A DNA stretch of 64,000 nt from Deltaproteobacteria bacterium (GTDB lineage Bacteria > Myxococcota_A > Polyangia > Polyangiales > Ga0077539), in the NCBI GenBank assembly GCA_030694465.1, contig JAUXYJ010000023.1:434001-498000 (forward strand). Direction: 5' to 3'. Of the stretch, positions 12,392 through 27,155 are shown piece by piece. Within the stretch, counting starts at the first letter, position 1; every line of letters starts with the position of its first letter. A program made the position numbers and the translations under genes. The notes beneath the pieces are model-generated. The model saw nothing but the letters and a program-made list of their open reading frames with translations. It did not search any database and was not told the DNA's origin.

Positions 12392-14359
12392 ATGACCCGC
12401 ATTTCTTCACGCTCGCTTGGACTGTTGCTCTCACTCACCGCGCTGTCGTGCAGCTCGCCTCCGACGCCCAGCGATGGTGGGGCCGATGCGGGCGTCGCAC
12501 CGCCGATGGTGTGCCGCACGGGCGAGGCATGGACCGCGGATCGACCGGCGTTTCGCCGCGCGACGGCAGACTGGGATCTCAGCGCTGTGCGGGGCACACG
12601 CTTCGCGACCGCAGACATCGACAACGATGGTTTTGCGGACCTCGTCGTGCAGTCCGGCACGACCAACGTGCGCACCAATCCCGACGCGACCCCTCCGGTG
12701 ATTCACACGCGCGTCTTGATGAACCGGCCCAAGATGGGCGGTGGGCGGCAGTTTGTCGACACGACACGCGCTTCGAATTTTCTCGCGACACGCAACGGCG
12801 AGTACGGCCGCAACACGACGATTACCGGCTTTGCAGACGTCGACAACGACGGTGACGTCGACGCGGTCACGCAGGTCTTTGTGGCCACCGATGCGCGCGC
12901 GGCGATGGACCCCGGAGACCGCGGGACGGTGTTGCTCAACGACGGGATGGGACGCTTCGCGCTCGCGGGCGAAAGCGCGATTTCGCCGCCCCACGACGAT
13001 GGATTTGCGTCGCAGAGCTCTGGGCTCGCGTTTGTCGATCAGAACCGTGACGGCAACATTGATGCGTTCGTGAGCTACTATTACGACCCCAGCGGAGGGG
13101 CCGAAATCGGCCAACAGCCGACGCTGTTTCGCGGCTCTGGCGACGGGCTCTTTGCAGACGTGACCGACAGCGTAGGGCTCACGCTCGGGGACACGATGGC
13201 GTCGTTTTCGATGGCGCAACATCGTCGCCCGCTCTACGGCGCCACCGCCTGCGACGTGAACGGCGACGGCATGCTGGACCTCATCGGCATGGCCTATGGT
13301 CGCCAATGGAATGAGCTCTTTGTCTCTCAACCCGACGGCCATTTTGTCGAGCAAGGGCGAGCGTCCGGCGTGGGCGGCGATGCCAACCAAGATTTCATGG
13401 GCGACCAGAGCTACCTCTGTTTTTGCCAGGCAAATCCCGCGCGATGTCCTGCAGGCACCGCAGTCCCGATGTACCAATGCCCCATCCGTGGCTGGCGCGA
13501 GGGCTACAACGATCAGCCCTGGAGGCTCAACGGCAACACCTTCACGATCGCGTGCGGAGACGTCGACAACGACGGCGACATGGACCTGTACACAGCCGAA
13601 ATCGCACACCCGGATACGGGCCCCGCGAGCGACCGCTCGCAGCTCTTGCGCAATGACTCGACCGCGGCAATGACACAATTTACGCGCGTCGATCGCGCGA
13701 CCTCGGGGCTCGTGCCTGGGTCGTCGCCTGGTCGCGACGAGGGTGGGATCTCAGCGGTGATGTTTGACTTCGACCGCGATGGCCGGCTGGATATCTGGTA
13801 CGGCGCGAGCGATTATCCGGGCAATTTTGGCTGGCTTTTTCACCAAAAGACCGACGGGACGTTTGAGCAAGTGAGCCGCGCCGCGGGGATCTACCACGCG
13901 TGCCCCGTCGGCATCGCGCTCGCAGACTTCGATGGCGACGGCGACCAGGATCTTATCGTAGGCAGCTCGACGGCCCGCGACTGCGCGCAGACCTGGCGCA
14001 TGGGCAACGAAGTGCACTTGTACGAAAATATCGCGGCCGATGTGAACAGCACGTCCATCCGTTTGGTGGGACGCGGCGCGGGTGGAGCCAACCGAAGTGG
14101 TATCGGCGCGCGCATCCGTGTGACCGCTGGAGGCATCACACAGACACGCGAGATCCAAGGGAGCTTCGGGCACTTTGGCTTGGGCCAAGAGCTCGTGGCG
14201 CACGTGGGACTTGGCAGCGCGTGCGCGATCGATCGGATCGAAGTGCGATGGCCCGATGCGACCAGCTCGGTGGAGACCTTTGCCAACGTGCGCGCGAACT
14301 ATCCGCTCGAGATTCGTCAGGGCGAAGGGTACGTGCGTTATCTGCCGCGCACCCCGTGA
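12392..14359 (+). CDS. FG-GAP/VCBS lipoprotein with C-terminal ASPIC/UnbV domain
   Basis: 655 residues. The signal peptide ends LLSLTALSC, a clear lipobox, followed by a Pro/Asp spacer. Seven Ca-binding FG-GAP-like units can be counted from DxDxDG-type loops: DIDNDGFAD, DVDNDGDVD, DQNRDGNID, DVNGDGMLD, DVDNDGDMD, DFDRDGRLD and DFDGDGDQD. They predict an integrin-like beta-propeller. The last 100 residues (GIGARIRVTAGG, SFGHFGLGQ, RIEVRWPDA) are a canonical ASPIC/UnbV domain. Such proteins are exported, probably surface-attached, and their ligand is unknown. ATG 12392 is the only sensible start. Confidence 0.88.
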   Translation: MTRISSRSLGLLLSLTALSCSSPPTPSDGGADAGVAPPMVCRTGEAWTADRPAFRRATADWDLSAVRGTRFATADIDNDGFADLVVQSGTTNVRTNPDATPPVIHTRVLMNRPKMGGGRQFVDTTRASNFLATRNGEYGRNTTITGFADVDNDGDVDAVTQVFVATDARAAMDPGDRGTVLLNDGMGRFALAGESAISPPHDDGFASQSSGLAFVDQNRDGNIDAFVSYYYDPSGGAEIGQQPTLFRGSGDGLFADVTDSVGLTLGDTMASFSMAQHRRPLYGATACDVNGDGMLDLIGMAYGRQWNELFVSQPDGHFVEQGRASGVGGDANQDFMGDQSYLCFCQANPARCPAGTAVPMYQCPIRGWREGYNDQPWRLNGNTFTIACGDVDNDGDMDLYTAEIAHPDTGPASDRSQLLRNDSTAAMTQFTRVDRATSGLVPGSSPGRDEGGISAVMFDFDRDGRLDIWYGASDYPGNFGWLFHQKTDGTFEQVSRAAGIYHACPVGIALADFDGDGDQDLIVGSSTARDCAQTWRMGNEVHLYENIAADVNSTSIRLVGRGAGGANRSGIGARIRVTAGGITQTREIQGSFGHFGLGQELVAHVGLGSACAIDRIEVRWPDATSSVETFANVRANYPLEIRQGEGYVRYLPRTP

Positions 14360-14394
14360 TCTTGTGACGCCCTTGAGCATCGGACGGGTCAGCG

Positions 14395-14907
14395 ATGAGT
14401 AACGAAGACAGCGATCCAGACGTGGTGTGGGTTGAGATCGAGGGCGCTGGGCGCGTGAGATTCTCGCGCAAATCGTCTATCCGAATCGATCAAGAGGGCC
14501 ACTTCTGGCACGAGGACGAGCGCGTAGAGCATCTTGGGATGTCCGAGACGTTTGCTCGCTGGATCACCCGCGACGCGGAGTCTGGGCGATATCAACTTCG
14601 CAACGGGATCGACTGGTGCTGGATCACCGTGGACGACGCGCCGCTCGTCGTGCGAGCCGCGCACGTTGAGAGTGACGGGCGCGTGACGCTCTGGCTGAGC
14701 GATGGACAGCAAGAGCGCTTGGATGCGTCCACGTTGAGTCTCCGCGACGAGAGCGTCCCGTATTGTCTCGTGCGAGAGGGCACCCTGTCCGCGCGCTTTG
14801 GAGCGAGCGCAGCGTTTACGCTGCTCGAACACGCGCAATGGCGCGATGGGCAGTGGATCCTCGCTTTGGCAAACGAGCGATTTGCGCTACCTCCCCACAC
14901 GCAATGA
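14395..14907 (+). CDS. DUF1285-like protein
   Basis: 170 residues. The segment IRIDQEGHFWHEDERVEHLGM followed by F.RWI, then WCWITVDDAPLVV, matches the DUF1285 pattern of a 'G.W.h....i....l...f...l' strand and a 'v.VeDaPfvv' strand. The family consists of small soluble bacterial proteins of unknown role. The stop overlaps the start of the next gene by four bases (ATGA), so the pair is cotranslated. No signal peptide. Confidence 0.6.
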   Translation: MSNEDSDPDVVWVEIEGAGRVRFSRKSSIRIDQEGHFWHEDERVEHLGMSETFARWITRDAESGRYQLRNGIDWCWITVDDAPLVVRAAHVESDGRVTLWLSDGQQERLDASTLSLRDESVPYCLVREGTLSARFGASAAFTLLEHAQWRDGQWILALANERFALPPHTQ

Positions 14908-15743
14908 CCGCACAAGATCTGCACACACTGATCGAGGCTTTTGAGGCGCGACGAGAGGCGATCGACGACGAGCAAGACCAAGCCCTCATGGCGCTCGCGC
15001 TTGAAGAATGCCAAGCGATCCGCGATCACCAAGACGCCACCGAGGGGGACATCTTAGAGGGCCTCTTGCGCGTCGTCGCGGGACCGCTGGTCGAAGGCGC
15101 TCAGCTTGCGCAGCGCGAGTGTGCGAAGACGTTGATGGCGCAAATGTCTGCGGCCTCGGACGACGCGAAGCGCGCATGGGGGGTGTCGAGCTGGGTCGCG
15201 ACGGCGCGCTGCGCGCTAAGGCTCGAAGATTCAGAGTTAGCCACGCAGGTGCTGGATGCGCGTGGTTGGTGCGAGGCGATTGAGGACAGCGTTTTGCACG
15301 GCGTGGTCGGCTTGCTGGCGCTCGAGCTGACGCTGCAGAGCCCACGGGAGCAGAGCGCGCACGACGCCGCGTTTGCGGCCGAGCAGCTTGAGCGGGCGGT
15401 GAGCGGTGCGGTGGAGGGCGAGCTTGAGGCTACGACCGTAGCGGAGTGGCTTGAGCCGCTGTGGAGAATTTACCTGGGACTGGGAGACGTAGAGCGCGCG
15501 CTCGGAGCGGCCCGTGCGTGGCTTTCACTTGAGAAATCACTGGGTAGAATGCTTCGTGTGTGCAGCGCATACGCGGCGATCGCGACGCTCTGCGATGAGC
15601 AGGGCGCACGAGATCAGGCCTTGGTGGCTGCGCAGGCTTGGCACGCGGTCGCGAGCGCGGCGCTCGAAGAGCATCCAGACGACGGGTTCTTGGTGCAGGC
15701 GCGTGCAGACGCCGAGGACGCTGTCGCTTCGCTCAGCGCATGA
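14904..15743 (+). CDS. Helical repeat protein, unknown
   Basis: 279 residues from ATG 14904, coupled by ATGA overlap to the DUF1285-like gene. It is strongly helical and Ala/Glu-rich, with spacing suggestive of TPR-like helix pairs (for example IYLGLGDVERALGAARAWLSLEK and YAAIATLCDEQGARDQALVAAQAWHAV in the last 100 residues). No signal peptide or catalytic motif. Probably a cytoplasmic scaffold that works with its upstream partner. No family name can be given with confidence. Confidence 0.65.
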   Translation: MTAQDLHTLIEAFEARREAIDDEQDQALMALALEECQAIRDHQDATEGDILEGLLRVVAGPLVEGAQLAQRECAKTLMAQMSAASDDAKRAWGVSSWVATARCALRLEDSELATQVLDARGWCEAIEDSVLHGVVGLLALELTLQSPREQSAHDAAFAAEQLERAVSGAVEGELEATTVAEWLEPLWRIYLGLGDVERALGAARAWLSLEKSLGRMLRVCSAYAAIATLCDEQGARDQALVAAQAWHAVASAALEEHPDDGFLVQARADAEDAVASLSA

Positions 15744-15837
15744 GCCGTGGGGCTCGCTCTAAAATCGGGCATTGGAGGCGCTGCGCGGCGTGTTGATACT
15801 TGACCAAACGGGCGCACAGCGAGACCGTTGCGCCGTC

Positions 15838-16947
15838 ATGCGTGAGGCGGAAATCGCCGCTATTACTGAGACCTTCTTCGAGACGGAGTTCGCCGAGTAC
15901 GACGCGCAAGCGTTGCTCGGGGCAGCGTTTGAGCGGCAGGAGCACGAGGGACGAGAGTTCGTCTATCTTCGACCTGATGCGCGAACGCTGGTGCGGGTGG
16001 ATCTAGCGATCCGCCCTCCGAAACCCGGCGAGTCGATGCTCGGAAGTGATGGCGAGTTGTATGCGGCAGAGCCCTTTATCGAAGAGCTTGTGCTGATCCT
16101 GAGGGCCTCGACGCCCTACTCTCGTCAATCGCTTGAGTCCATGTTTGGGCCCGCGCGGTTGAGCGAAGGCCCCATCAACGAAGATGGCGATCCCTCGTTG
16201 CAGCTCACATTTGACTATGTGGGCAGTTTTACAGGGCAACTGATGATCCGCTGGTGGCGTGAGCCCATCGATCCGCCGAACATGGGCCGCCCCAATGGGC
16301 CCGATGAGGTCCGCGTCGAAGAGTTTCATCTCACGAGGCTTCCGTTCGGGAGCGAGCCCGAAGAAGAGGTCGCCATGGACGAGCTCTTGGAGGACGACCT
16401 CGAGGATGCCAACTCTGGACAGTGGAACATGGACCCCGAGGCGTTTGCCGACGCGATGACCGTCGGATCGTCTCAGGCAAACCCCGAGACCATGAACCGC
16501 GAGACGGTCCCACCCATGGTGGCCGTTCAGTTCTCGATCGATGACGCGATGGAGGCTGGCGTATGGCTCGCAGACCTCTCTTGGCGAATCCTGCGTGCAG
16601 ATTTTACCGTCGATCGAGCCCTCGATACGTTGGGATTGCCAGAGGGTCCGCTGGGTGACGGTGAAGCAGTGTCGCTCACGCCGTTGGACGCTCGCTTGGG
16701 CGGAGTCACGATCGTTCCGCGGGGTGAACGCGTGGGCCAAGCCGTGCTCTATCCGCACAGCGACCCGCCCATGGTGGTCGCCATTGACGCGCTCACCGAT
16801 CGCTTTGGGGCAGAGCCGTCCCACGCGATGGGCAGCGTGAGCTTTCGCATGGAAGGCACGCGCTCACGTGGCACGGTGGTCGTCCACGGCAACGAGCTAC
16901 GCACAGGCCTCTGGGCTGTGTCCGTCGTCGACCTTCACCGCAACTGA
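15838..16947 (+). CDS. Acidic soluble protein, unknown
   Basis: 369 residues from ATG 15838; a TTG at 15772 would extend it by 22. A first domain (about 1-170) is followed by an acidic linker near EEEVAMDELLEDDLEDANSG and a second alpha/beta domain. There is no signal peptide and no known motif. It follows the helical-repeat gene by 94 bp and may belong to the same transcription unit. It converges with the lipoprotein at 16985 across 37 bp. I do not recognise it. Confidence 0.6.
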   Translation: MREAEIAAITETFFETEFAEYDAQALLGAAFERQEHEGREFVYLRPDARTLVRVDLAIRPPKPGESMLGSDGELYAAEPFIEELVLILRASTPYSRQSLESMFGPARLSEGPINEDGDPSLQLTFDYVGSFTGQLMIRWWREPIDPPNMGRPNGPDEVRVEEFHLTRLPFGSEPEEEVAMDELLEDDLEDANSGQWNMDPEAFADAMTVGSSQANPETMNRETVPPMVAVQFSIDDAMEAGVWLADLSWRILRADFTVDRALDTLGLPEGPLGDGEAVSLTPLDARLGGVTIVPRGERVGQAVLYPHSDPPMVVAIDALTDRFGAEPSHAMGSVSFRMEGTRSRGTVVVHGNELRTGLWAVSVVDLHRN

Positions 16948-16984
16948 GCCAAGCCTCTTTCGCTGCCCGTTCACACCGCCAGGG

Positions 16985-17560
16985 TCACTCGGGTAGCGCG
17001 CGGCAACCGCGAGGCGCTTCGCACTGCCCCTGCGCGTCACAAGACGCCGTCGCAAACGCCAGTCGATCTTCGGTGAGCGCCATGCGCGCTTGGCTCGTCG
17101 GACCCGCGCCAGCCATGCACAGCCCCGCAGCGCTCACGCGATCGAGTCCACGATCGCGCGCCGTGACTCCGGGCGAACGCGCGACACACAGCCCACCCCC
17201 ACACGCCACACGCTGCCCACGGTGCATCGGCGGGCAATCGAGATCGCGCGCACACGCGATGGGTCGACAGCGTGAGAGATCAGGCCGCGCAGGGCGCCCC
17301 TCTGCGATCCACGCGTGACACACCGTCGGGACATGTGCGCCGAGCAACGCGAACCCTGCGTGCTCGCCCGGCTGGGCCTGCCCCTGCGGACGGGCGCCCA
17401 TGGGGGATGAGATCTCTTCGCGACAGACCCCCTCGCGGCAGCTCACACGGTAGACGCTCTGCTCGGTGTCACGCACGTTGTACTGGGTGCCAGTGTCACA
17501 ACCCATCAGCGCGTTGAGCAGTAAAAACACAGAAACAAATCTCAACACTTGCGCGCTCAT
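16985..17560 (-). CDS. Small Cys-containing lipoprotein
   Basis: 191 residues from ATG 17560. The signal peptide VSVFLLLNALMGC ends in a good lipobox (LMGC). The mature part has about ten further Cys residues in short loops (SCREGVCREE, CARDLDCPP, CGGGLCVA, CDAQGQCEAPRGC). These resemble EB/TIL-like disulfide-rich modules common in Polyangia lipoproteins. Its ATG overlaps the stop of the upstream Old Yellow Enzyme gene (ATGA), so it is cotranslated with a cytosolic flavoenzyme, an unusual pairing. Function unknown. Confidence 0.7.
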   Translation of the reverse strand: MSAQVLRFVSVFLLLNALMGCDTGTQYNVRDTEQSVYRVSCREGVCREEISSPMGARPQGQAQPGEHAGFALLGAHVPTVCHAWIAEGRPARPDLSRCRPIACARDLDCPPMHRGQRVACGGGLCVARSPGVTARDRGLDRVSAAGLCMAGAGPTSQARMALTEDRLAFATASCDAQGQCEAPRGCRALPE

Positions 17561-19035
17561 GGTTGCCACTCCGGTGCGATCAGACGCCTTCGACCATCTC
17601 GCGCGATTCGACTAGGCGACTCGGGCAAATCGCCTGGCCGAATGCGATCCCATCGCTGACACGTGACCTCTTTGTGATGCTGGTCGAGCGCTTCACAGTA
17701 GTTCGTAAACTTGCACCGACGGACCTCTGCGCCGCGCCCAAGCCGCGCTTTCTCAAACCAGTCCGGGTCGGCGAGGGTCTGTCTCGCGGACGCTGCAAAG
17801 TCACAGTCTCCGTCTCGCAGGGCACGCTCTGCGATCGCAAATCCATGAATCCCGCCGGCTGCGACGACGGGCGTATCGAGACCTGCGCTGCGAATTCGCT
17901 CACGAATCTCTCGTGCGAGCGCAAGGTTGCGGCCAAACGGGCCACGCGCGTCCGAGCGAACCGTGGGCATGCACTCGTGACCGCTGGGGCCGGTGTACGG
18001 GTACGCCGCGTGTCCGACCTTGGGCTGCGCCGCGTCGTCAAACTTGCCGCCCTTGGACACGCTCACAAAGTGCAACCCATCGTGGGCGAGCTGTAGTGCG
18101 AAAAATGCTGCATCTTCGCAGGTGGATCCGCCCTCGATGGACTCGTCTCCGAGCAAGCGACAGCCCACGACAAACGACGGCGACACGCGCTCGCACACGG
18201 CCCGTACGACTTCACGTGGCAAGCGCGCGCGTCCCTCGAGCGTGCCTCCGTAGCCATCGTCACGTTGGTTGGTCGCCGACAAAAAAGAGGCCATGGTGTA
18301 AGCGTGCGCGTAGTGGAGCTCGACGCCGTCAAAGCCTGCTTTTTCAGCGCGCAATGCTGCCTCGGCGAAGAGCGTTGGCAGCACCTGCGGGAGCGTGCGG
18401 ATGTGCTCGAGGTGCGTGTCGGTCACGCGCTCACGGTGGCCATGCGTCAGGGACTCAAGCGCGCGGGGGTCCAGCACGCGTGAGAGCACGCTGTCGTCGA
18501 GCGCGATCAACCGCTCGCGGACCTGGCTCTCGGACGCGCGCGTCCAGCGAGGGTCACCGAGAAGCGCTGAGAGTTTTTCTCTCAATTCGCTGGTGATTTC
18601 GAGAAATCGTCGGAGGTATTTCTCTCGATCAGGGCGTCGTTTGATGGCCAAAAAATCAATGAGCTGGATCAACACCAGCGTCTGCCCTTCAGAGGCCTGG
18701 CGCACCGCATCGACGACCTGGCGCAGACCATCGAGGTAGCGGTCGTGACCGATGCGCAACAGCGGTCCAGACGCGACGTCTCGGATGCCGGTGGCTTCGA
18801 GGACAAGAACACCTGGTTTTCCGCTGGCAAATCGTGCGTACCAGTCGATCACCGCGGGAGAGACAAAGCCCTCTTCGGTCGCGCGCCACGGCACCATCGC
18901 GGGCACCCATGTTCGGCGCAAGCTTGTGCGTGGACCCAGCACGCGAGGCGAGAACAAGAGGCTCTCTGCCGCTTGCGCTTGCGTGGGCCACGCTTCGTCA
19001 GGGACCGCGTGCACGATGGGCAGTGACCGGGACAC
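17557..19035 (-). CDS. Old Yellow Enzyme family NADH:flavin oxidoreductase
   Basis: 492 residues from a GTG at 19035. The N-terminal half of the FMN-binding TIM barrel starts RVLGPRTSLRRTWVPAM. The family signature FDGVELHYAHAYTMASFLS followed by N.RDDGYGG lies in mid-protein. A late VVAAGGIHG and DCDFAASARQTLADPDW form the phosphate-binding end. An extension of about 60 residues holds RRCKFTNYC..LDQHHKEVTC, similar to the position of the Fe-S Cys motif in 2,4-dienoyl-CoA reductase-like members but with changed spacing. An insert of about 50 residues (REKLSALLGDPRWTRAS...) is longer than usual. It probably reduces an activated alkene; substrate unknown. Confidence 0.85.
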   Translation of the reverse strand: MSRSLPIVHAVPDEAWPTQAQAAESLLFSPRVLGPRTSLRRTWVPAMVPWRATEEGFVSPAVIDWYARFASGKPGVLVLEATGIRDVASGPLLRIGHDRYLDGLRQVVDAVRQASEGQTLVLIQLIDFLAIKRRPDREKYLRRFLEITSELREKLSALLGDPRWTRASESQVRERLIALDDSVLSRVLDPRALESLTHGHRERVTDTHLEHIRTLPQVLPTLFAEAALRAEKAGFDGVELHYAHAYTMASFLSATNQRDDGYGGTLEGRARLPREVVRAVCERVSPSFVVGCRLLGDESIEGGSTCEDAAFFALQLAHDGLHFVSVSKGGKFDDAAQPKVGHAAYPYTGPSGHECMPTVRSDARGPFGRNLALAREIRERIRSAGLDTPVVAAGGIHGFAIAERALRDGDCDFAASARQTLADPDWFEKARLGRGAEVRRCKFTNYCEALDQHHKEVTCQRWDRIRPGDLPESPSRIARDGRRRLIAPEWQP

Positions 19036-19108
19036 CGAAGTGCCTATATCACCACCCCGGCGAGCGCACGAAACACTCTGACGGATCTTTCACCCCACCC
19101 GAGCGCGC

Positions 19109-20233
19109 TCAGCGCATCACAATAAAGCTGCCCGAGAACGTGCCGAAGTTCGACGTGGTCACGCCGCCGCGCGACGAGCCACGGTAGCGGGGATAGCCTC
19201 GCGAGATCAGCACGGTAAACGCGCCGCCCTGCGCCTGTGTGATCCGGCCCGCGTGGACGGCTGCGGTGCACATCGACGAGTCATCGGTGTAGGGCCCGCT
19301 GCCCCAGACCGTGCCAGTCGCTCCACCGGGCGGGCAGAACACGCGGTGGGTCGACCCGTTGGCTCCCCGCCATGCGGTCGCGGTCTGCGCCCACGTGATG
19401 CCCTCTGCGCCATCGGGCGCAGCGACTTCGGGCGGGACCGTAGGCGTAAACGCAAAGCTGCCCGGGTAGGTCGCGTAGTTGCGTGAGGTCACGCCGTTGG
19501 CCACGCTGCCTTGGTAGCTCGAGCGCCCAGGATGCACGAAGACTGTCACTGCGCCGCCTGCCATGGGGTTGATCATCCCTGAGTGCGTGGCTGCCGAGCA
19601 GATAGACGAATCGTCTGTAAAAACGCCGGTTCCCCAGACCGAGCCCAGCGTGCCATTGGGCGGACACTGGTGCACAAAGCTCGTGCCAATCTGACCTCGA
19701 TGCGATGTGACGTTGGCCGTCCAGGGGTTGGCCACATTGATCTGGACGCCACCGACGTTTACGCCATTGCCGTTAAAGTTCACGTTGGGCACGGGGATGG
19801 CCATGAGGCCGGGCGCAGGGCCACCCACGATCGTGAAGCTCCCCGGAAATCCTGCGAAATTTCGTGAGGTGACCTGATTGCGGATGGTCCCGTTGAAGGC
19901 AGGCATGCCGGGGCCGATCTGGATCTGTACGACGCCGCCTGCTGGGGTCATCCGGCCCGAGTGCGCAGCGGCGGTACAGATCGACGAGTCGTCGGTGTAG
20001 ATGTCGGTTCCCCAGACCGAGCCCGTGGGCGCGCCAGGAGGACACGCGAATGCGTGGACCGTGCCAATTTGCCCGCGAAGTTGCCGCGCATTGTTGGTCC
20101 ACTGGATGTCCGTTGCTTCCACCGTGGGGGTGACACGGCTTTTTTTGCAGCCAGGAGCCATCGCCAGCAACGAGACTCCAGCGAGGGTCACGAAGATGCG
20201 AAGAGCGGGCGAAGAGGGAGCGCGTGCGGTCAT
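19109..20233 (-). CDS. Lipoprotein with three tandem LCCL domains
   Basis: 374 residues from ATG 20233. The signal peptide ends LLAMAPGC, a lipobox. Three repeats of about 95 residues follow (about 43-136, 166-258, 277-374). Each has RGQIGT or RGANGS, a Cys-Pro-Pro, GSVWGT.iYTDDSSIC, AA.H.G, a GG turn and a final 'TSRNFAGFPGSF' strand. These are the hallmarks of the LCCL fold named after Limulus factor C, Coch-5b2 and Lgl1. Each domain keeps two Cys. LCCL domains bind lipids or LPS in eukaryotes; here a surface binding role is inferred. It is divergent from the acyl-CoA dehydrogenase gene. Confidence 0.85.
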   Translation of the reverse strand: MTARAPSSPALRIFVTLAGVSLLAMAPGCKKSRVTPTVEATDIQWTNNARQLRGQIGTVHAFACPPGAPTGSVWGTDIYTDDSSICTAAAHSGRMTPAGGVVQIQIGPGMPAFNGTIRNQVTSRNFAGFPGSFTIVGGPAPGLMAIPVPNVNFNGNGVNVGGVQINVANPWTANVTSHRGQIGTSFVHQCPPNGTLGSVWGTGVFTDDSSICSAATHSGMINPMAGGAVTVFVHPGRSSYQGSVANGVTSRNYATYPGSFAFTPTVPPEVAAPDGAEGITWAQTATAWRGANGSTHRVFCPPGGATGTVWGSGPYTDDSSMCTAAVHAGRITQAQGGAFTVLISRGYPRYRGSSRGGVTTSNFGTFSGSFIVMR

Positions 20234-20512
20234 GACAGTCAGGATCCTTTCAGTGATCGGCAGCTTCGTATGCGCTGCAAATTCTGGTAGCGATGAAGTT
20301 AGAAGCGATAAGCAACTAACTATCAGTGGTGCCAACGGAGACCCCTGTCTCGTCGCAGTCTGACAGGCAACGACACGAATCTCGTAGCACCCTCGAAACG
20401 CGTGAAGCTTCTCACACAACCTACAAAAACCGGCAAATGTATTAGAATAATTCCGCACATTTTGCAGATCAGAATGCGTTTCTGTTTCTTCTTACTTCTC
20501 TGAACAAGTCCG
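20234..20512. promoter_or_regulatory. AT-richer divergent intergenic region
   Basis: This is the 279-bp gap between the LCCL lipoprotein and the acyl-CoA dehydrogenase starts. The right half (about 20400-20500) is clearly richer in A/T than its surroundings (for example ATGTATTAGAATAATTCC), which fits a promoter region for the dehydrogenase. I cannot assign a sigma factor or operator. No ORF in it is convincing. Confidence 0.4.
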
Positions 20513-22315
20513 ATGACGCCCCTCACGCGAGGCCCATCATCAGAGCCGCCGACGGGGGATCACGGTGGTAGTATCTCTCAGAGATTGTTGGATATGGCCG
20601 ATGCACAGTCGCTACTAAAGTCGCTCTTTTACGGGGTCATTCCCGAGTCCATGTTGTTTCCGTACCCGGAGATTTCACGAGAAGAGCGCGAGCACACTTC
20701 GCTGCTCATCGAGAGCACGAGGCGGTATTTTTCAGAGCGAGTCGACAGCGCCAAGATTGATCGGGAGGCCTCGTTAGGTCCCGAAATCCGCGAAGGGATC
20801 GCGCGCCTCGGGCTCTTTGGGCTGAGAGTCCCCGCGCGCTTTGGCGGTCGCGGGCTCTCGGCCATGAGCTACGCGCGCGTCCTCGAAGAGCTCGCGCTGA
20901 TGGACGCGTCCATCGCCCTGACCGTGGGCGCGCACGGCACATTGGGCCTTGGCGCGCTCGTGCTCTACGGGAGCGAGGCCCAACAGCGCAAATACCTCCC
21001 TCGCCTTGCCTCGGGCGAGTGCATCGCGAGCTTCGCGCTCACAGAGCCTGGCGCGGGCTCGGACGCCGGCGGGATCACCACGCAAGCCAGAGTCGTAGGC
21101 GACGGTCTGACCGTGCAAATTGATGGCGAAAAGTGCTGGATCGCCAACGCTCCGAGCGCACAATTTTTCACGGTCTTTGCGCGCACCACGGGCGACGACG
21201 ACCTGAGGCCGCGGTTGACCGCGTACTTTGTCGAGCGTGGCCGCGGAGTCCAAACGCTCCCCGCAGAACCCACGCTGGGTGTGCGCGGACTCGAGCTCGG
21301 GGGCATCCGATTTGACGGCGCACGCGTCGCGACCGACGACGTCCTCGGGGAGGTAGGCAAGGGCCACCGCGTGGCAGTCCAGGTGCTTAACGACGCACGG
21401 ATTACCCTCGCCGCGGGGTGCGTCGGGAGCTGCAAGCGGCTGATCAAGCTCAGCACCGAACGCGTGGGAAAACGCAGGGCATTCGGGCGCACCATCGGTG
21501 AATTCGGCCTGATCAAAGACAAGATCGCGCGCATGATGACCGACACGTTTGCGCTCGAGTCCATGACCTATCTCACCGCGGGGCTGGCCGACGGTCGCGG
21601 CACCGACTACGCCGTCGAGAGCGCGATTTGCAAGGTCTTTGGCAGCGAGACGCTCTGGCGCGTGGCGCACGAGTCCATGCAGATCGCTGGCGGAGCTGGC
21701 TTTATCCAGAAGCAACCCTGGGAGCGGCTGCTCCGTGACGCTCGGGCGACGCTCGTGTTTGAAGGGACCAACGAGATCTTGCGTGCGTTTATCGCGCTCG
21801 CGGGCATGCAAGGCCCCGGACAAAAGATCGCGGACGTGGGCAGAGCCATGCGCGAACCGATCAAGGGCTTTGGCTTGTTGAGTGACTTCGCGATCCAGAA
21901 AGCGCGCAGCGCGCTGGGCCGAGATCGCATTGAGAAAGCCCACCCGCTGTTGCGCCGTGAGGTCGTGCTGCTTGAGCAGGCGACCGAGCAATTTTCAAGG
22001 CAGATCGACAAGGTCTTGCGACGACACGGCACCGAGATCGCAGAGATGCAGTACACCCAGCGACGGGTGGCAGACATCGCGATCGACCTGTTTGGCCTCG
22101 CGGCGACCATCTCGCGATCGACCCGCGCGATCGAAAAGAAGGGTGAAGAGGGCTCGCGGCGCGAACTTGAGCTCACCACCGCGTTCGCCAACGGCGCCGA
22201 AAAGCGTATCCGCAGCAACGTCGCGAGCATCGACGAGAACGACGATGAGCTGCTCAAGGGCATCGCCACACGCACCTACGGCGACAACGGGTACCCTTTT
22301 GACGCGGTGCTATAA
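20513..22315 (+). CDS. Very-long-chain-type acyl-CoA dehydrogenase
   Basis: 600 residues, which matches the long VLCAD/ACAD9-type family rather than the 380-residue short type. LTEPGAGSDAGG and WIANAP are the FAD/substrate-binding core. RVAFGRTIGEF-like KRRAFGRTIGEFGLIKDKIARM and QIAGGAGF lead to VFEGTNEILRAFIAL, which carries the Glu that acts as catalytic base in VLCAD. A C-terminal helical extension of about 180 residues follows. It oxidises acyl-CoA to 2-enoyl-CoA in beta-oxidation, probably at the membrane. The start is taken at ATG 20513; ATG 20594 (MADAQSL) is an alternative that better fits family length. Confidence 0.88.
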   Translation: MTPLTRGPSSEPPTGDHGGSISQRLLDMADAQSLLKSLFYGVIPESMLFPYPEISREEREHTSLLIESTRRYFSERVDSAKIDREASLGPEIREGIARLGLFGLRVPARFGGRGLSAMSYARVLEELALMDASIALTVGAHGTLGLGALVLYGSEAQQRKYLPRLASGECIASFALTEPGAGSDAGGITTQARVVGDGLTVQIDGEKCWIANAPSAQFFTVFARTTGDDDLRPRLTAYFVERGRGVQTLPAEPTLGVRGLELGGIRFDGARVATDDVLGEVGKGHRVAVQVLNDARITLAAGCVGSCKRLIKLSTERVGKRRAFGRTIGEFGLIKDKIARMMTDTFALESMTYLTAGLADGRGTDYAVESAICKVFGSETLWRVAHESMQIAGGAGFIQKQPWERLLRDARATLVFEGTNEILRAFIALAGMQGPGQKIADVGRAMREPIKGFGLLSDFAIQKARSALGRDRIEKAHPLLRREVVLLEQATEQFSRQIDKVLRRHGTEIAEMQYTQRRVADIAIDLFGLAATISRSTRAIEKKGEEGSRRELELTTAFANGAEKRIRSNVASIDENDDELLKGIATRTYGDNGYPFDAVL

Positions 22316-22325
22316 ATCCCTGAGA

Positions 22326-22919
22326 TTATCCTCGTAGAGTGTCCGCGACATGGTCAAGCACGCGCCGGTCGTGGAGCATCCAGCGGTGTAACTTCACGGG
22401 GACCACGAGCTCGCTCTTGGCCTCGGGCAAGTGACTTGAGCGGGCCGGGACGATCATCAGGTCGAAGGGCGTCCAGACCGTGTGCAGCTCCACCTGATCC
22501 CACGGCGAAGGGTGCTCGCGAAGTGCGCGCAAAAACGCAGAGTTGGGGCGCATCTGTCGCAGCCCTGCGCGAGGCAGCGCGAGCGCCGTGAGCGTGCCGT
22601 GGTGAGGCCCCGAGATCGACACAAACCTGCGGACGCTCTCGCGCCCGTAGTGATGGACAAAATAGCGTGACGTGAGCGCGCCCATCGAGAAGCCCACCAG
22701 GTCGAGTGACGTGCACGAGAACTGCGCGAGGACTCGCGAGACCTGGTCACGCACCTGCACCGCCAGTGTCTCGATCGTGGCGCTCCCGTCGTTGGGACAC
22801 AGGTCGATCGCGATTACACGATCCCCTGCAAATCCCCTGGCGACTAACGCTTCGCGTAGGGGCGCGATCCGCTCGGACGAGTCCCAAATTCCGTGCACAA
22901 GCACGACCGGTGGATGCAT
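22326..22919 (-). CDS. Alpha/beta hydrolase, lipase-like
   Basis: 197 residues from ATG 22919. A TTG at 22940 overlapping the upstream stop would give a coupled start and seven extra residues. VVLVHGIWDSS is the oxyanion-hole strand, VGFSMGALTSRYF holds the nucleophile Ser elbow, and SISGPHHGT is typical of PGAP1/triacylglycerol lipase-like members. The acid is probably the Asp in TPFDLMIVP, and the His lies near LHRWMLHDR. There is no signal peptide. It is last in a three-gene operon with an OmpA protein and a Cys-rich lipoprotein. Substrate unknown, likely a lipid ester. Confidence 0.8.
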   Translation of the reverse strand: MHPPVVLVHGIWDSSERIAPLREALVARGFAGDRVIAIDLCPNDGSATIETLAVQVRDQVSRVLAQFSCTSLDLVGFSMGALTSRYFVHHYGRESVRRFVSISGPHHGTLTALALPRAGLRQMRPNSAFLRALREHPSPWDQVELHTVWTPFDLMIVPARSSHLPEAKSELVVPVKLHRWMLHDRRVLDHVADTLRG

Positions 22920-22936
22920 CACGTGGGCAGCGTAGT

Positions 22937-24154
22937 TCAAGGGAGCACGGCGCGGTGCAAGATCATCGGGCGGGTGACATCGTTGGCGTCGGCAAACACT
23001 GCGTACGACAAAGCCCCTTGGTAGCGAACCATGTTGCGGCTGCCTCGGTACAACACGTCTACGCCGCTCGCGACGGCGTCTCCTGCCGCACGCGAGAGCA
23101 GCTGCACCGTCGCGTCATCGGCGTCTTCGGCCGAGTCGATGGGCAAGAGCGTGGTCGCGCGCGAGATCATCCATGTGCCATGGGTCGGGTTGGCGCCATC
23201 CATGAGAATCACTGTCCCCCCTGCGCGGGTAAACGAGGTGATCGGAGAGGCCCACGCCAGCGCGATGGTGCTCATTTGTGCGGGCGTCGCGTTGGGTTGG
23301 TCGTAGACAATCAACGCGTCGACGGCGTCGATCGTGAGGTCACGAGAGAGCGTGCTCTCGTCGGCCAGCACGGTCCGACGCAGGCGCATCCCAAACGCGC
23401 GGTCGACCAAGGACTGCACGCGCGTGACCACTGGCGGATCAGAATACCGCGAGAAAACCAGCGCGCGGATGAGCCCACGCGAAGCGAGGGCGACGGCGTT
23501 TTCGAGCGTGAGGTCTTGAGGCGTACGCGAGGACGCATAGTCTCCGCCGAGCTGGACGATGTGCCCAGCGCGCGCGCTACGACAGCGGCCGCCATTGCAG
23601 ATTCCGCTCGGACACACGACGCCACACATGCCGCAGTGGTTGGGGTCTGTGTTGGGATCGACGCAAAAACCATCGCACTCGACCAACGGCGCGAGGCATC
23701 GCGGGGTGCATGTGCCCAGCACACAAAACTCGCCCATCGCGCAGCTGCGACCACAGATTCCACAGTGCAAAACATCTGACGAAATAGACACACAGGTGCC
23801 TTCGCACACCTGCTGTGGTGGCGTGCAGCCGGCCTCGGGGACGTCTCCGCGCTGAACATCGTCTGCGTCCGTGGGCAAAGCGGCGACGTCGCCGGAATCA
23901 TCCACGCGTCCAGCGTCGCCAGAGTCCCCACCATCCATCGCGACAACTACGGCGCCATCCCCGTCGAGCTGGGCGTGGTCATTGGCGGCATCCGAGGCGT
24001 CCGACCGTGTCCCATCTGCGAGGCTCGCGTCGCGACGAACGCAGCGAAAATCCACGGTCTGTTCGTACTCAGGGAGGCAGCGACCTCCGACGAGCGGGCT
24101 CGTGCACGCGTGCAGGGCCGCGAGCGCGGCGAGGAAAAACCACTGGGACTTCAT
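22937..24154 (-). CDS. Cys-rich lipoprotein with Asp-rich linker
   Basis: 405 residues. The signal peptide LAALAALHAC is a lipobox. An Asp/Ala/Gly-rich linker of about 70 residues is followed by a Cys-rich block: VCEGTCVSISSDVLHCGICGRSC, then CDGFCVDPNTDPNHCGMCGVVC, two copies of a 'C..GxC....D..HCG.CG..C' module seen in many Polyangia lipoproteins. The C-terminal 220 residues form an alpha/beta domain (LIRALVFSRYSD, GGTVILMDGANP) that resembles a ThuA/GATase-like fold; this is tentative. The start overlaps the OmpA gene stop by four bases. A degenerate dispersed palindrome lies in the linker at 23878-23897. Confidence 0.75.
   Translation of the reverse strand: MKSQWFFLAALAALHACTSPLVGGRCLPEYEQTVDFRCVRRDASLADGTRSDASDAANDHAQLDGDGAVVVAMDGGDSGDAGRVDDSGDVAALPTDADDVQRGDVPEAGCTPPQQVCEGTCVSISSDVLHCGICGRSCAMGEFCVLGTCTPRCLAPLVECDGFCVDPNTDPNHCGMCGVVCPSGICNGGRCRSARAGHIVQLGGDYASSRTPQDLTLENAVALASRGLIRALVFSRYSDPPVVTRVQSLVDRAFGMRLRRTVLADESTLSRDLTIDAVDALIVYDQPNATPAQMSTIALAWASPITSFTRAGGTVILMDGANPTHGTWMISRATTLLPIDSAEDADDATVQLLSRAAGDAVASGVDVLYRGSRNMVRYQGALSYAVFADANDVTRPMILHRAVLP
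23878..23897. repeat. Dispersed palindrome, degenerate copy
   Basis: The 15-base core CGGCGACGTCGCCGG (23881-23895) is intact, and the flanks differ from the consensus at four positions (16/20). It lies inside the Asp-rich linker of the Cys-rich lipoprotein and reads SGDVAALP on the coding strand. Confidence 0.55.
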
Positions 24155-25452
24155 GGACGCACCTCGGGGACTGGCACCTGCTCGTAGCCACGACGCGAAA
24201 ACACTCGGCCAGGCGTACGGCGGCCGTCTAAGACAAACTGCACACGGCGATTGAGCGCGCGCTCCCAGTAGTCATTTCCCTCGGTGATGGGCGTCTGTTG
24301 GCCGTAGCCATAGGGCCGCATGCGAGAGCGTTCGATGCCGAGCGCGACGAGCGCGTCGATCACGGTGCGTGCCCGAAGCCAAGAGAGACGGTCGTTGTAG
24401 TGCGCGTCTCCGAGAGAGTCCGCGTGGCCCTCGACATAGATCACGGCGAACTCTGGGTGCGTCCGAAGGATCAGCGCGATCGCCGAGATCACCGGCCGTG
24501 ACTCACGCGTTAGCCTCACGGAGTTAAAGAAAAATCGCAGTGAATCCGCGTAGTCAACCCGTCCGTCGTGCACCCGCGCGAGCGACTCGTCGGGGCAGCC
24601 GTCTTCGTCGTCGATCCCGTTGATCACTTCGGCCGCGTTGGGGCATCGGTCGCGGGTGTCCTCGATGTTGTCGTGGTCGTTGTCAGGGTCCGGGCAGCCG
24701 TCTTGGTCTTCGAAGCCGTCGCGATCTTCGGCTTCGTTTACGCAGTGATCAAGAGTGTCGCCGATGCCGTCGCCGTCGCGATCGCTGTCGGGGCACCCGT
24801 CGCGGTCAAGGTCCTGCGCGACGGTGTGCGCAAACTCGGGGCAGCGCCTAGGTTCTTCGACCCTCGGCGGGGGCGCAGGCGTGCGTGGCGCACTGGGTCG
24901 CACAAACGTACGGCTGAGCTCGACGCCGCCCTCGACCCACTGGGCGTCGCCGCGGAGCACCGACGGGACAAGGTCGAATTGGCGAAGGTAGCCAAGGTAG
25001 GCGCCGATGTTCCATGTGGCAATTCGCAGATCAAAACCGAACCGCGCGGCGATCGACGGAGCGACTCGCTCGCCCGTGACGCCTCCGCCCAGCGCGAGCT
25101 CGGCGAACGGCGAGAGGATCGCGTCTTGCGGCATGGGCTCAACCCGCGCGTGCGCTTCGATCCCAAGCCACCCTCCGGGCCCGCCAGGAGGCGCGACACC
25201 CTGGGGCAGCCCGGGAGCGCTTACGGTGCTCACCAAGGCCCCCACGAGGCCACCACCCACGACGAGCCACGATTGTGCAAAGAGCTCCCCGCTCGCCCCC
25301 AGCAACACCCCCGGACCGAACTGAACGGACTGGGGACTGGCGACCGGCGCGATCATTGCCACCCGCGCACGCGTCCTGTACTGGGCACTCGCGGCGCGAG
25401 GTGCCAGAGCACTTGCGATGATCAGGATCGCCGTAAACATCCCACCGCGCAT
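24151..25452 (-). CDS. OmpA-family protein with thrombospondin type 3 repeats
   Basis: 433 residues with a Sec signal (ILIIASALAPRAASAQ). A beta-barrel-like N-terminal domain (about 25-205) precedes Ca-binding TSP type 3 repeats (about 215-300: DLDRDGCPDSDRDGDGIGD, DQDGCPDPDNDHDNIED, DEDGCPDES). The C-terminal OmpA peptidoglycan-binding domain follows (VIYVEGHADSLGD, NDRLSWLRARTVIDAL, NRRVQFV). It anchors the outer membrane to peptidoglycan. First gene of the operon with the Cys-rich lipoprotein and lipase. A second in-frame ATG at 25440 is possible. Confidence 0.9.
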   Translation of the reverse strand: MRGGMFTAILIIASALAPRAASAQYRTRARVAMIAPVASPQSVQFGPGVLLGASGELFAQSWLVVGGGLVGALVSTVSAPGLPQGVAPPGGPGGWLGIEAHARVEPMPQDAILSPFAELALGGGVTGERVAPSIAARFGFDLRIATWNIGAYLGYLRQFDLVPSVLRGDAQWVEGGVELSRTFVRPSAPRTPAPPPRVEEPRRCPEFAHTVAQDLDRDGCPDSDRDGDGIGDTLDHCVNEAEDRDGFEDQDGCPDPDNDHDNIEDTRDRCPNAAEVINGIDDEDGCPDESLARVHDGRVDYADSLRFFFNSVRLTRESRPVISAIALILRTHPEFAVIYVEGHADSLGDAHYNDRLSWLRARTVIDALVALGIERSRMRPYGYGQQTPITEGNDYWERALNRRVQFVLDGRRTPGRVFSRRGYEQVPVPEVRP

Positions 25453-25500
25453 AGAAGCCAGTATGGTCTGAGCCGATCGGCGGCGTCTACCCTCGTTGCC

Positions 25501-25974
25501 ATGCGAGTCACTTTCGATCGGTCTGAGAGCCCCGCGATGAGAGCACCCAAGAGTCGATTTAGGTCTGCAAAATTAGCAGCGCTTTGCATTTTTATCGTGC
25601 ACTGCAAGCAGGGGCTCCCGGACGCACCGACCGAGTCCACCGTGAGCGAGTCGCCGTCGCCATTGCCTCCAGAGTCGCGTGCCCGGATGGTCTTTTCGTC
25701 CCGATGCGCGAGCTGTCACGGGAGCGAAGGGCGCGGAGATGGCGTCGCAGCCGCGGGGCTGCAACCACGCCCACGCAACTTCGCAGACCCCGCCTGGCAC
25801 GACCGCGCCAACGACGCGTACCTGCGCCGGGTCATCGTCGAGGGAGGCGCCGCCGTCGGACGCTCTGCGCTCATGCCCCCTGCGCCCGATTTGCGTGGGC
25901 AGCCGCTGGTTCTCGATGCGCTCGTGCAGCAGGTCCGCGTGATGATGCACGCAGCGCCCGCGCAGACGCACTAG
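25501..25974 (+). CDS. c-type cytochrome
   Basis: 157 residues from ATG 25501; ATG 25537 would give a shorter signal region. The hydrophobic AALCIFIVHC segment before Lys-Gln suggests membrane or lipoprotein export. A single haem-binding CASCHG motif is followed by GxxGRGDG and, late, SALMPPAP, whose Met is the likely sixth ligand. This is the size and layout of a monohaem class I cytochrome c. The electron partner is unknown. It is divergent from OmpA (48-bp gap) and lies 11 bp upstream of the DNA repair gene. Confidence 0.85.
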   Translation: MRVTFDRSESPAMRAPKSRFRSAKLAALCIFIVHCKQGLPDAPTESTVSESPSPLPPESRARMVFSSRCASCHGSEGRGDGVAAAGLQPRPRNFADPAWHDRANDAYLRRVIVEGGAAVGRSALMPPAPDLRGQPLVLDALVQQVRVMMHAAPAQTH

Positions 25975-25985
25975 ACTCGGACGCG

Positions 25986-27155
25986 ATGGAGAAGAGCACA
26001 CGCTTTGCGCGCTTTGAGACGGCCCTAGGGCAGTGCGCAGTGAGTTATCATCACCGGTCTATTTGCGGGGTGTTTCTGCCTGAGAGCAGCCCAAGAGCGC
26101 TCGCTAAGCGCGTGCTCGAGAGAGCCCCTGACGCGGTGGAGAGCGAGCCCTCGGAGCTCGCCAAGGGCGCCATCGCTGCGCTGCGCGAGGCCGCAGAGGG
26201 CAAGACAACGGAGGCGCTCTTGGCGCTCCCGCTAGAGCTCTCGGGGGTGCCGGATTTTTATCGCCGCGCGAGTGTGCAGGCGCAGAAAATCCCGGTGGGT
26301 GAGACCCTGACCTATGGGGACCTCGCCGAGCGTGCGGGCGCCAAGGGTGGCGCGAGGGCGGCGGGACAGGCCATGCGTGAGAATCGTTTTCCGCTGGTGG
26401 TTCCCTGTCATCGCGTGGTCGCGGCGGGGGGCGGGCTCGGTGGCTTTTCGGCCGGCGGCGGGCTGAGCACGAAGCTCAAATTGCTCGCGGCCGAGCGCGA
26501 AGCACAGCGGGCGAAGAAGCACTCGCTCGCCCTGCCCTACGACCTCGCGCGAGCACGCGAACACCTGAGCGCGAGCGACCCGTTGCTCAAACCATGGATC
26601 GCTCGCGTGGGCGAATGCATGCTCGCCCGGGCGCCCACCGAGAGCGTGTTCGCCGCGCTCACCGAGGCCATCGTGTACCAACAGCTCTCGGGCCGCGCCG
26701 CTCGCACGATCTTTCTTCGGCTGTGGGCACTGGATGGCTTGGCGCCGACAGGACTGCGCGCAGAGAGCCTCGCGCGAATGAGCGAAAAGAAGCTCCAGAG
26801 CGCAGGGATTTCGTCAGCAAAATCACTGGCAATCCAAGAACTCGCGCAGAGAGCCCGAGACGGCAAGCTTCGGACACTGCAGGCCCTCGGAGACATGGAG
26901 GACGAAGCCATCGTAGACGAGCTCATCGCGCTCCGTGGGATCGGTCGCTGGACCGTCGAGATGTTCTTGATGTTTAGGCTCGGGCGCCCGGACGTGTTGC
27001 CGCTGGACGACCTAGGGGTGCGCAAGGGCCTCGGGGCGCTGCTCAAGCGCGAGGGCCCCGTCGAGAAGGCAGAGTTAGCGGCCCATGGCGCGCGTTGGGC
27101 GCCCTACCGCAGCGTCGCGAGCTGGTATCTATGGCGCGCGAGCGAGCTCGCCTAG
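25986..27155 (+). CDS. Ogt-type alkyltransferase fused to AlkA-type DNA glycosylase
   Basis: 389 residues. Residues 1-170 are an O6-alkylguanine-DNA alkyltransferase: KIPVGETLTYGDLA, then VVPCHRVV with acceptor Cys141, then GGFSAGGGLSTKLKLL. Residues 185-389 are an HhH-GPD DNA-3-methyladenine glycosylase: TEAIVYQQLSGRAA, the hairpin-helix-hairpin LRGIGRWTVEMF (about 316-327) and LPLDDLGVRKG with catalytic Asp342. One chain would therefore reverse O6-methylguanine directly and excise N3-methyladenine. No Ada regulatory domain is present. The ATG at 25986 follows the cytochrome stop by 11 bp. Its end overlaps the convergent TPR gene by four bases. Confidence 0.9.
   Translation: MEKSTRFARFETALGQCAVSYHHRSICGVFLPESSPRALAKRVLERAPDAVESEPSELAKGAIAALREAAEGKTTEALLALPLELSGVPDFYRRASVQAQKIPVGETLTYGDLAERAGAKGGARAAGQAMRENRFPLVVPCHRVVAAGGGLGGFSAGGGLSTKLKLLAAEREAQRAKKHSLALPYDLARAREHLSASDPLLKPWIARVGECMLARAPTESVFAALTEAIVYQQLSGRAARTIFLRLWALDGLAPTGLRAESLARMSEKKLQSAGISSAKSLAIQELAQRARDGKLRTLQALGDMEDEAIVDELIALRGIGRWTVEMFLMFRLGRPDVLPLDDLGVRKGLGALLKREGPVEKAELAAHGARWAPYRSVASWYLWRASELA

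Follow-up and report, generated by a model that had tools for sequence, protein, structure and literature searches.

The stretch of myxobacterial DNA analyzed here (64,000 nucleotides, called the window) encodes a lipoprotein with three LCCL domains. This triple-LCCL lipoprotein is real. The LCCL domain itself is already known, best of all from proteins of hearing and immunity in animals. Our favored reading, held tentatively and at slightly less than even confidence, is that the protein would be tethered to the inner membrane, face the periplasm, and act in multivalent binding or scaffolding of some envelope ligand that is not lipopolysaccharide (LPS).

Three LCCL domains on a bacterial lipoprotein

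The open reading frame lies exactly where it was predicted (Table 1). Pfam recognizes LCCL (PF03815) in three stretches of the product with an E value of 1.4e-57 and 192.3 bits (cut-off, 22.6), and the domains individually score 69.9, 67.7, and 63.3 bits in the genome scan. An AlphaFold model built from 15 sequences (alignment A1) has a mean pLDDT of 82.5 and a pTM of 0.50, which means that each domain is modeled more reliably than the placement of the domains relative to one another. In Foldseek, the top match was the cochlin LCCL structure (E, 3.4e-5), followed by Rxt3 of the S. pombe SIN3L complex (E, 1.2e-4). VIA-align superimposed domain 3 on the LCCL domain of human cochlin (1jbi) with a Z score of 14.8 and an rmsd of 1.9 over 97 aligned residues at 30% identity; this residue-level comparison covered domain 3, plus domain 1 for one Rxt3 row, and domain 2 is assigned from Pfam and the model. 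Structure prediction, which had been proposed as a check, thus returned the LCCL fold, and the three domains of the original prediction are confirmed. The motif YxxxSxxCxAAVHxGVI, as given for LCCL in a section of PMC10892792, is found as YTDDSSICTAAAHSGRM, FTDDSSICSAATHSGMI, and YTDDSSMCTAAVHAGRI, with the Cys and His kept and single positions varying.

The repeats had been described as near-identical, but their pairwise identities are 53, 51, and 46%. Among nine window-type proteins (that of the window included), domains at the same position are 65 to 70% identical, versus 52% at different positions. The triplication is therefore old, and a recent origin of near-identical repeats is ruled out. 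The order of the three domains is conserved among window-type proteins, as are the VTVFVHPGR stretch in domain 2 and the linker between domains 1 and 2, which is modeled with low confidence at residues 150 to 166. Single-domain paralogues (L040, L044, and L048) are closest to domain 2 (56 to 61% identity, versus 43 to 49% for the others).

The expected lipoprotein nature also stands: the signal peptide runs directly into a lipobox Cys, and lipoboxes occur at the same position in relatives. In the window protein, the lipobox departs slightly from the norm (A-P-G-C, without Leu at -3), and the mature protein is predicted to begin with Cys-Lys-Lys.

Table 1. Features of the triple-LCCL lipoprotein gene (window positions) and of the small gene upstream of the second paralogue type (positions in other stretches)
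Feature	Position	Strand	Basis
Triple-LCCL lipoprotein gene, 374 aa, ATG start	19109..20233	(-)	ORF, translation, Pfam, 15-sequence alignment A1
Signal peptide, residues 1-28, end LLAMAPG	20150..20233	(-)	Sequence; relatives' lipoboxes at same place
Predicted lipidated Cys29, then Lys-Lys (+2, +3); candidate inner-membrane retention signal	20141..20149	(-)	Lipoprotein +2 counts in this work; M. xanthus rule (part of PMC3222651)
LCCL domain 1, residues 38-137, Cys64 and Cys86	19823..20122	(-)	Pfam, genome scan, model; aligned to Rxt3 8ga8
Gly/Asn/Pro-rich linker, residues 138-167	19733..19822	(-)	Alignment, model
LCCL domain 2, residues 168-263, Cys190 and Cys212	19445..19732	(-)	Pfam, genome scan, alignment, model
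LCCL domain 3, residues 274-374, Cys300 and Cys322	19112..19414	(-)	Pfam, genome scan, model; aligned to cochlin LCCL
Stop codon	19109-19111	(-)	
Small upstream protein of the G000:C43 type	L035:7361-7924 (-); L039:6179-6856; L043:6615-7226; L047:1618-2235 (-)		

Cysteine pairs

Each window domain contains two Cys, the first preceding the VWG motif and the second within SSIC/SSMC (Table 1). We aligned 243 LCCL domains from the window, genome stretches, genome-contig loci, and viral-collection contigs, and thinned them to below 90% identity. The remaining 184 comprise 151 domains with both Cys, 22 with neither, 3 with one, and 8 with a gap at the first position. Both or neither were thus present in 173 of 176 nonredundant domains, and two of the three exceptions have another Cys close by. 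Because the two positions covary almost perfectly, we read the single pair of each window domain as a probable disulfide. The two-Cys pairing that had been expected is therefore supported by covariation as one pair per domain; the four Cys and two disulfides of the animal and apicomplexan LCCL subtype are absent from the window domains.

A second count covered 183 domains, of which 87 have only the core pair and 16 have no Cys at the counted positions. Another 57 have, besides the core pair, one Cys far toward the N terminus and a further one in the core, mostly as CxC, with the CxxxC spacing of cochlin in six of them. Smaller groups carry an N-terminal Cys and another near the end (WxC). Domains without the pair occur in L082, L093, L106, L112, L115, L116, L121, L131, and viral-collection contigs, and their records are named Acidobacteria, Bacteroidota, Spirochaetes, and others. 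The LCCL proteins of the viral-collection contigs (L150 to L161), whose viral origin is putative, mostly have long Thr-rich linkers; they lack the core pair, and several have another likely pair.

Distribution, domain partners, and gene neighborhoods

The genome that contains the window encodes a second triple-LCCL protein with a lipobox (G000:C43:9142-10044). LCCL was present in 17 of 57 genomes (the window's own included) and in 18 of 235 genomes of the phylum, and it was found in none of 14 control genomes. The domain had been introduced as best known from animals and apicomplexans, yet it is not mainly eukaryotic: relatives are encoded on 226 stretches of the genome-contig collection, from which we kept 79 loci of many bacterial groups. 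Their records are named Myxococcales, cyanobacteria (Nostoc and Oscillatoria), actinobacteria (Rhodococcus), Acidobacteria, Gemmatimonadetes, Bacteroidetes, Anaerolineae, Alphaproteobacteria, and Spirochaetes. This sample is biased, as the scan used a single pattern, VWG[TS][GD]x[YF][TS][DT]D.

Ten chosen LCCL proteins were scanned for Pfam domains. Two (L118 and L147) join an M57 metallopeptidase to two LCCL domains, one (L081) has part of a trypsin domain with LCCL and SLH, one (L097) has DUF6777 with LCCL, and one (L059) has two LCCL domains with a Tudor-knot. The others are LCCL arrays (L082, L093, and L116) or have a single LCCL domain (L112 and L135). M57-type (HEIGH) metallopeptidase-like proteins with C-terminal LCCL were seen in ten loci (L118, L126, L127, L133, L138, L140, L141, L146, L147, and L148) of Myxococcus, Corallococcus, Pyxidicoccus, and Citreicoccus; L118 and L147 are confirmed by Pfam, and the other eight are assigned by resemblance. 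Like the window protein, these Myxococcaceae proteins are exported LCCL proteins of myxobacteria; unlike it, they have a protease domain, the four-Cys LCCL subtype, and Gly instead of Lys at +2. Two LCCL lipoproteins (L059 and L065) carry a C-terminal extension; in L059 it matches Tudor-knot/Agenet, a domain of the chromatin type that here sits on an exported protein of a bacterium, and in L065 it looks similar. Two other proteins (L058 and L070) combine hydrophobic, membrane-spanning-looking stretches with one degenerate LCCL domain. Elsewhere in the window, positions 22937-24154 of the minus strand encode a lipoprotein-like product with STIG1-like Cys-rich repeats (Pfam Stig1, 45 bits), and similar-looking repeats adjoin LCCL domains in L036 and L063.

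Gene neighborhoods were compared all against all in 37 stretches, consisting of window positions 13000-28000 and L035 to L070; the composition filter removed the LCCL frame of the window and kept its neighbors. In this comparison, no neighboring gene common to the window gene and its relatives was found. The sole window frame with a match elsewhere (25563-27152) matched L064, a stretch outside the window-type relatives. Neighbors are common to some of the relatives (L037 with L045, and L052 with L055), and kinases or regulators lie near several. Upstream of the second paralogue type (G000:C43), four of five stretches encode, on the strand of the paralogue, a related small protein with an export-signal-like start; its gene adjoins the paralogue gene in three and lies about 0.6 kb away in L039 (Table 1). 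No Pfam match was found for the two of these small proteins that were tested.

In our literature search, no paper joined LCCL with myxobacteria or with a lipoprotein and a bacterial genome, and the astacin paper PMC9848320 names LCCL once, in a domain list. Bacterial LCCL is little discussed in the literature surveyed, which was covered in part, and we do not claim that it is unpublished.

Relationship to Rxt3 and to animal LCCL proteins

The window protein also matches the Pfam family Rxt3 (PF08642) at 89 bits (cut-off, 29.9); it is filed as LCCL because that score is far higher (192 versus 89 bits). With VIA-align, Rxt3 of S. pombe (8i03) matched domain 3 at a Z score of 9.9, and budding yeast Rxt3 matched domains 3 and 1 at 7.6 to 7.7, which is in the ambiguous range of the tool. 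Sequence matches by profile were weak (E, 0.009 and 0.02) and pointed in the same direction as the fold. Bacterial LCCL matches Rxt3 significantly in profile, both with Pfam and with the S. pombe sequence, and also in fold; the top Rxt3 Pfam score, 131 bits, belonged to a four-domain array without the Cys pair (L093). The Rxt3 structures (8i03, 8ga8, and 8hpo) have the motif WGxDxYxDDS in common with the window protein; in contrast to it, Rxt3 is nuclear, a subunit of the Rpd3L/SIN3L histone deacetylase complexes of fungi. In the aligned part, S. pombe Rxt3 has Ala and yeast Rxt3 has Ile in place of the SSIC Cys; yeast Rxt3 also lacks the first Cys, a position that falls outside the aligned part for S. 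pombe. A role as a deacetylase-complex subunit is implausible for an exported bacterial lipoprotein. In the literature surveyed, we found no paper that names both LCCL and Rxt3. The LCCL-Rxt3 link may nevertheless be known in databases, since InterPro presumably places Rxt3 in an LCCL-like superfamily. The Rxt3 passages of the structure papers PMC10115800 and PMC10224958 do not mention LCCL.

Among animal proteins, the LCCL domain of cochlin resembles the window domains in fold, in a YxxxSxxCxAAVHxG-type motif, and in being exported. As summarized in part of PMC10892792, animal LCCL has four conserved Cys and, in cochlin, precedes von Willebrand A domains, whereas the window protein is a bacterial lipoprotein whose domains, three in tandem, have two Cys each. 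CRISPLD2 (Lgl1) likewise has tandem LCCL in an exported protein, namely, two domains with reported lipid A binding (same part of PMC10892792); the window protein differs in lacking an SCP/CAP domain, in having a lipid anchor, and in belonging to a host without detected LpxC or LpxB. Bacteria themselves have been reported as the LCCL ligand of akhirin.

Lipid A genes

LpxC was found in 0 of 13 genomes searched, 8 of which belong to the family of the window (its own genome included); across the phylum, it was found in 112 of 235 genomes, with two other families of the same order (f7 and f12) among them. LpxB was found in 0 of 13 genomes of the window's family, again including its own, and in 12 of 57 genomes overall, all in f7 and f12. 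The family genomes are 64 to 96% complete, so the absence of a single lipid A gene means little; across the family, the pattern of apparent absence is consistent. With neither gene found in the genomes searched, LPS of its own is unlikely for this organism, and we set aside binding of self-LPS. The myxobacterium Sorangium cellulosum reportedly lacks LPS. LCCL as a marker of LPS carriers was likewise set aside: 11 of the 18 LCCL-positive genomes are LpxC positive and 7 are not, compared with 112 of 235 overall, which shows no clear link.

Lipid anchor and membrane side

According to PMC3222651, 8 of 12 inner-membrane lipoproteins of M. xanthus have Lys at +2, Ala at +7 is a signal of extracellular-matrix lipoproteins, and an added +2 Lys did not block FibA from reaching the matrix, so the +2 Lys signal is not absolute. 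Lys or Arg occupies +2 in 20 of 28 LCCL lipoproteins, versus 3 of 43 other predicted lipoproteins of the same stretches, and +2 or +3 in 25 of 28 versus 10 of 43. The Fisher p value for this enrichment (~1e-8) is overstated because many of the LCCL lipoproteins are orthologues and not independent. Hand selection gave the 28, whereas a rule gave the 43; under an identical automatic rule for both sets, the +2 counts were 19 of 25 and 3 of 43 (one artefact dropped). The window's family alone has Lys or Arg at +2 in 14 of 19 cases; counting +3 as well raises this to 18 of 19.

BamD is an outer-membrane lipoprotein, and proteins of the SCO1 type are expected at the inner membrane. Lys or Arg at +2 or +3 was seen in 0 of 23 BamD-like lipoproteins of the same order (25 of 30 loci parsed, 2 without a lipobox). 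For SCO1, 30 parsed loci gave 16 rule matches, and 12 usable lipoboxes remained after 4 internal CxxxC sites were dropped; Lys or Arg was at +2 or +3 in 6 of the 12 (7 with one start re-read) and at +2 in 2 (3), which makes SCO1 a thin control for the inner membrane. The SCO1 of the window's genome starts with CKPK, and those of family relatives with CRRR, CTKK, and CAAGACRRRA, where the true start of the third is probably CRRR; the remaining SCO1s of the family lack a lipobox. Two further inner-membrane controls were uninformative: HlyD adaptors gave one lipobox in 30 loci, with wrong frames in several, and PilP was found in 5 of 57 genomes, none of them in the window's family. LolA was detected in 11 of 13 genomes searched and is encoded in the window's own genome. 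By the +7 Ala rule of M. xanthus, which may not hold here, the window protein does not look like a matrix lipoprotein (+7 Thr, +2 Lys), and just 2 of the 28 LCCL lipoproteins have Ala at +7. Taken as sequence evidence, the anchor offers moderate support for the inner membrane, by a +2 rule that comes from another myxobacterial group and may not hold in this one.

Possible functions

The lipid anchor would tether the protein to the outer face of the inner (cytoplasmic) membrane, and the protein would extend from there into the periplasm. Arranged in series and each probably held by one disulfide, the three LCCL modules would jointly form a multivalent binder or scaffold for a putative non-LPS ligand, which could be a glycan of the cell wall or envelope or a protein partner in the envelope. 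Together with the anchor, a tether of about nine residues, a probable disulfide in each of the three domains, and the Gly/Asn-rich linker joining domains 1 and 2 would suit multivalent capture or scaffolding. We infer the membrane side, the ligand class, and the multivalency; glycan or protein partners appear more likely because the organism seems to have no LPS of its own.

The LCCL identity and lipoprotein nature of the original prediction hold, whereas its picture of a surface protein that binds LPS or lipids, possibly in contact with other bacteria, probably does not, given that LpxC and LpxB were not found and that Lys/Arg at +2 predicts inner-membrane retention under the M. xanthus rule. 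A version of that picture, in which a surface lipoprotein binds LPS or lipid A of other Gram-negative bacteria in predation or contact, strikes us as quite improbable. It has precedents in the lipid A or LPS binding, or action on bacteria, reported for CRISPLD2, cochlin, and factor C LCCL (in parts of PMC10892792 and PMC9333281). An LPS-less cell could tell foreign LPS from self, and the M57 fusions of the four Myxococcaceae genera would suit it as well. Yet foreign-LPS binding needs surface exposure, of which we found no sign: the +2 Lys/Arg signature is unlike that of the order's BamD-like lipoproteins, and the window protein is not among the two with Ala at +7. LCCL also occurs in records of Actinobacteria and Chloroflexi; since these groups are not known to have LPS, LPS cannot be the general LCCL ligand.

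The cell's own exopolysaccharide or matrix glycans would be another ligand for an outer-membrane or surface lipoprotein. For cochlin, binding of sulfated heparan sulfate/heparin is reported; the LCCL domain is probably responsible and is regarded by the authors as possibly lectin-like (part of PMC9333281). Repeated domains would suit glycan avidity, and the lipoprotein sorting rules of this order are unproven. We nonetheless consider this unlikely, as it meets the same objections from the anchor, namely, the +2 Lys/Arg, the scarcity of +7 Ala, and the dissimilarity to BamD-like lipoproteins. It is likewise unlikely, in our estimate, that the protein is purely a protein-protein scaffold in which the LCCL modules keep an envelope complex together without binding any small ligand. 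Arguing for a scaffold, the bacterial domains match Rxt3, which is among the subunits forming the Rpd3L scaffold in budding yeast (part of PMC10224958) and in S. pombe lies in one lobe and contacts Pst3, Prw1', and Rxt2 (part of PMC10115800), and apicomplexan LCCL proteins act in multi-protein complexes (part of PMC10892792). The second paralogue type has its candidate exported partner gene upstream, but the neighborhoods of the window gene and its relatives have no such partner in common in the stretches compared. We retain the inner-membrane-tethered, periplasm-facing binder or scaffold as the favored, tentative reading.

A broader evolutionary scenario is doubtful but can be stated. LCCL may at root be a bacterial envelope-binding module with a non-LPS ancestral ligand, from which the LPS-binding LCCL domains of animals and fungal Rxt3 would descend. 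The module would have expanded as inner-membrane-tethered triple-LCCL lipoproteins in an apparently LPS-less myxobacterial family, and Rxt3 would have arisen from a form like the pair-less LCCLs of Acidobacteria and Bacteroidota.

Published accounts treat LCCL as a module of animals and apicomplexans that encounters components of the bacterial cell wall. In this analysis, it occurs across bacteria, is multiplied in a family without detected lipid A genes, and is detectably related to a fungal chromatin subunit. The family of the window separates the LCCL domain from LPS, and a bacterial triple-LCCL protein would make the question of the LCCL ligand testable without LPS interfering.
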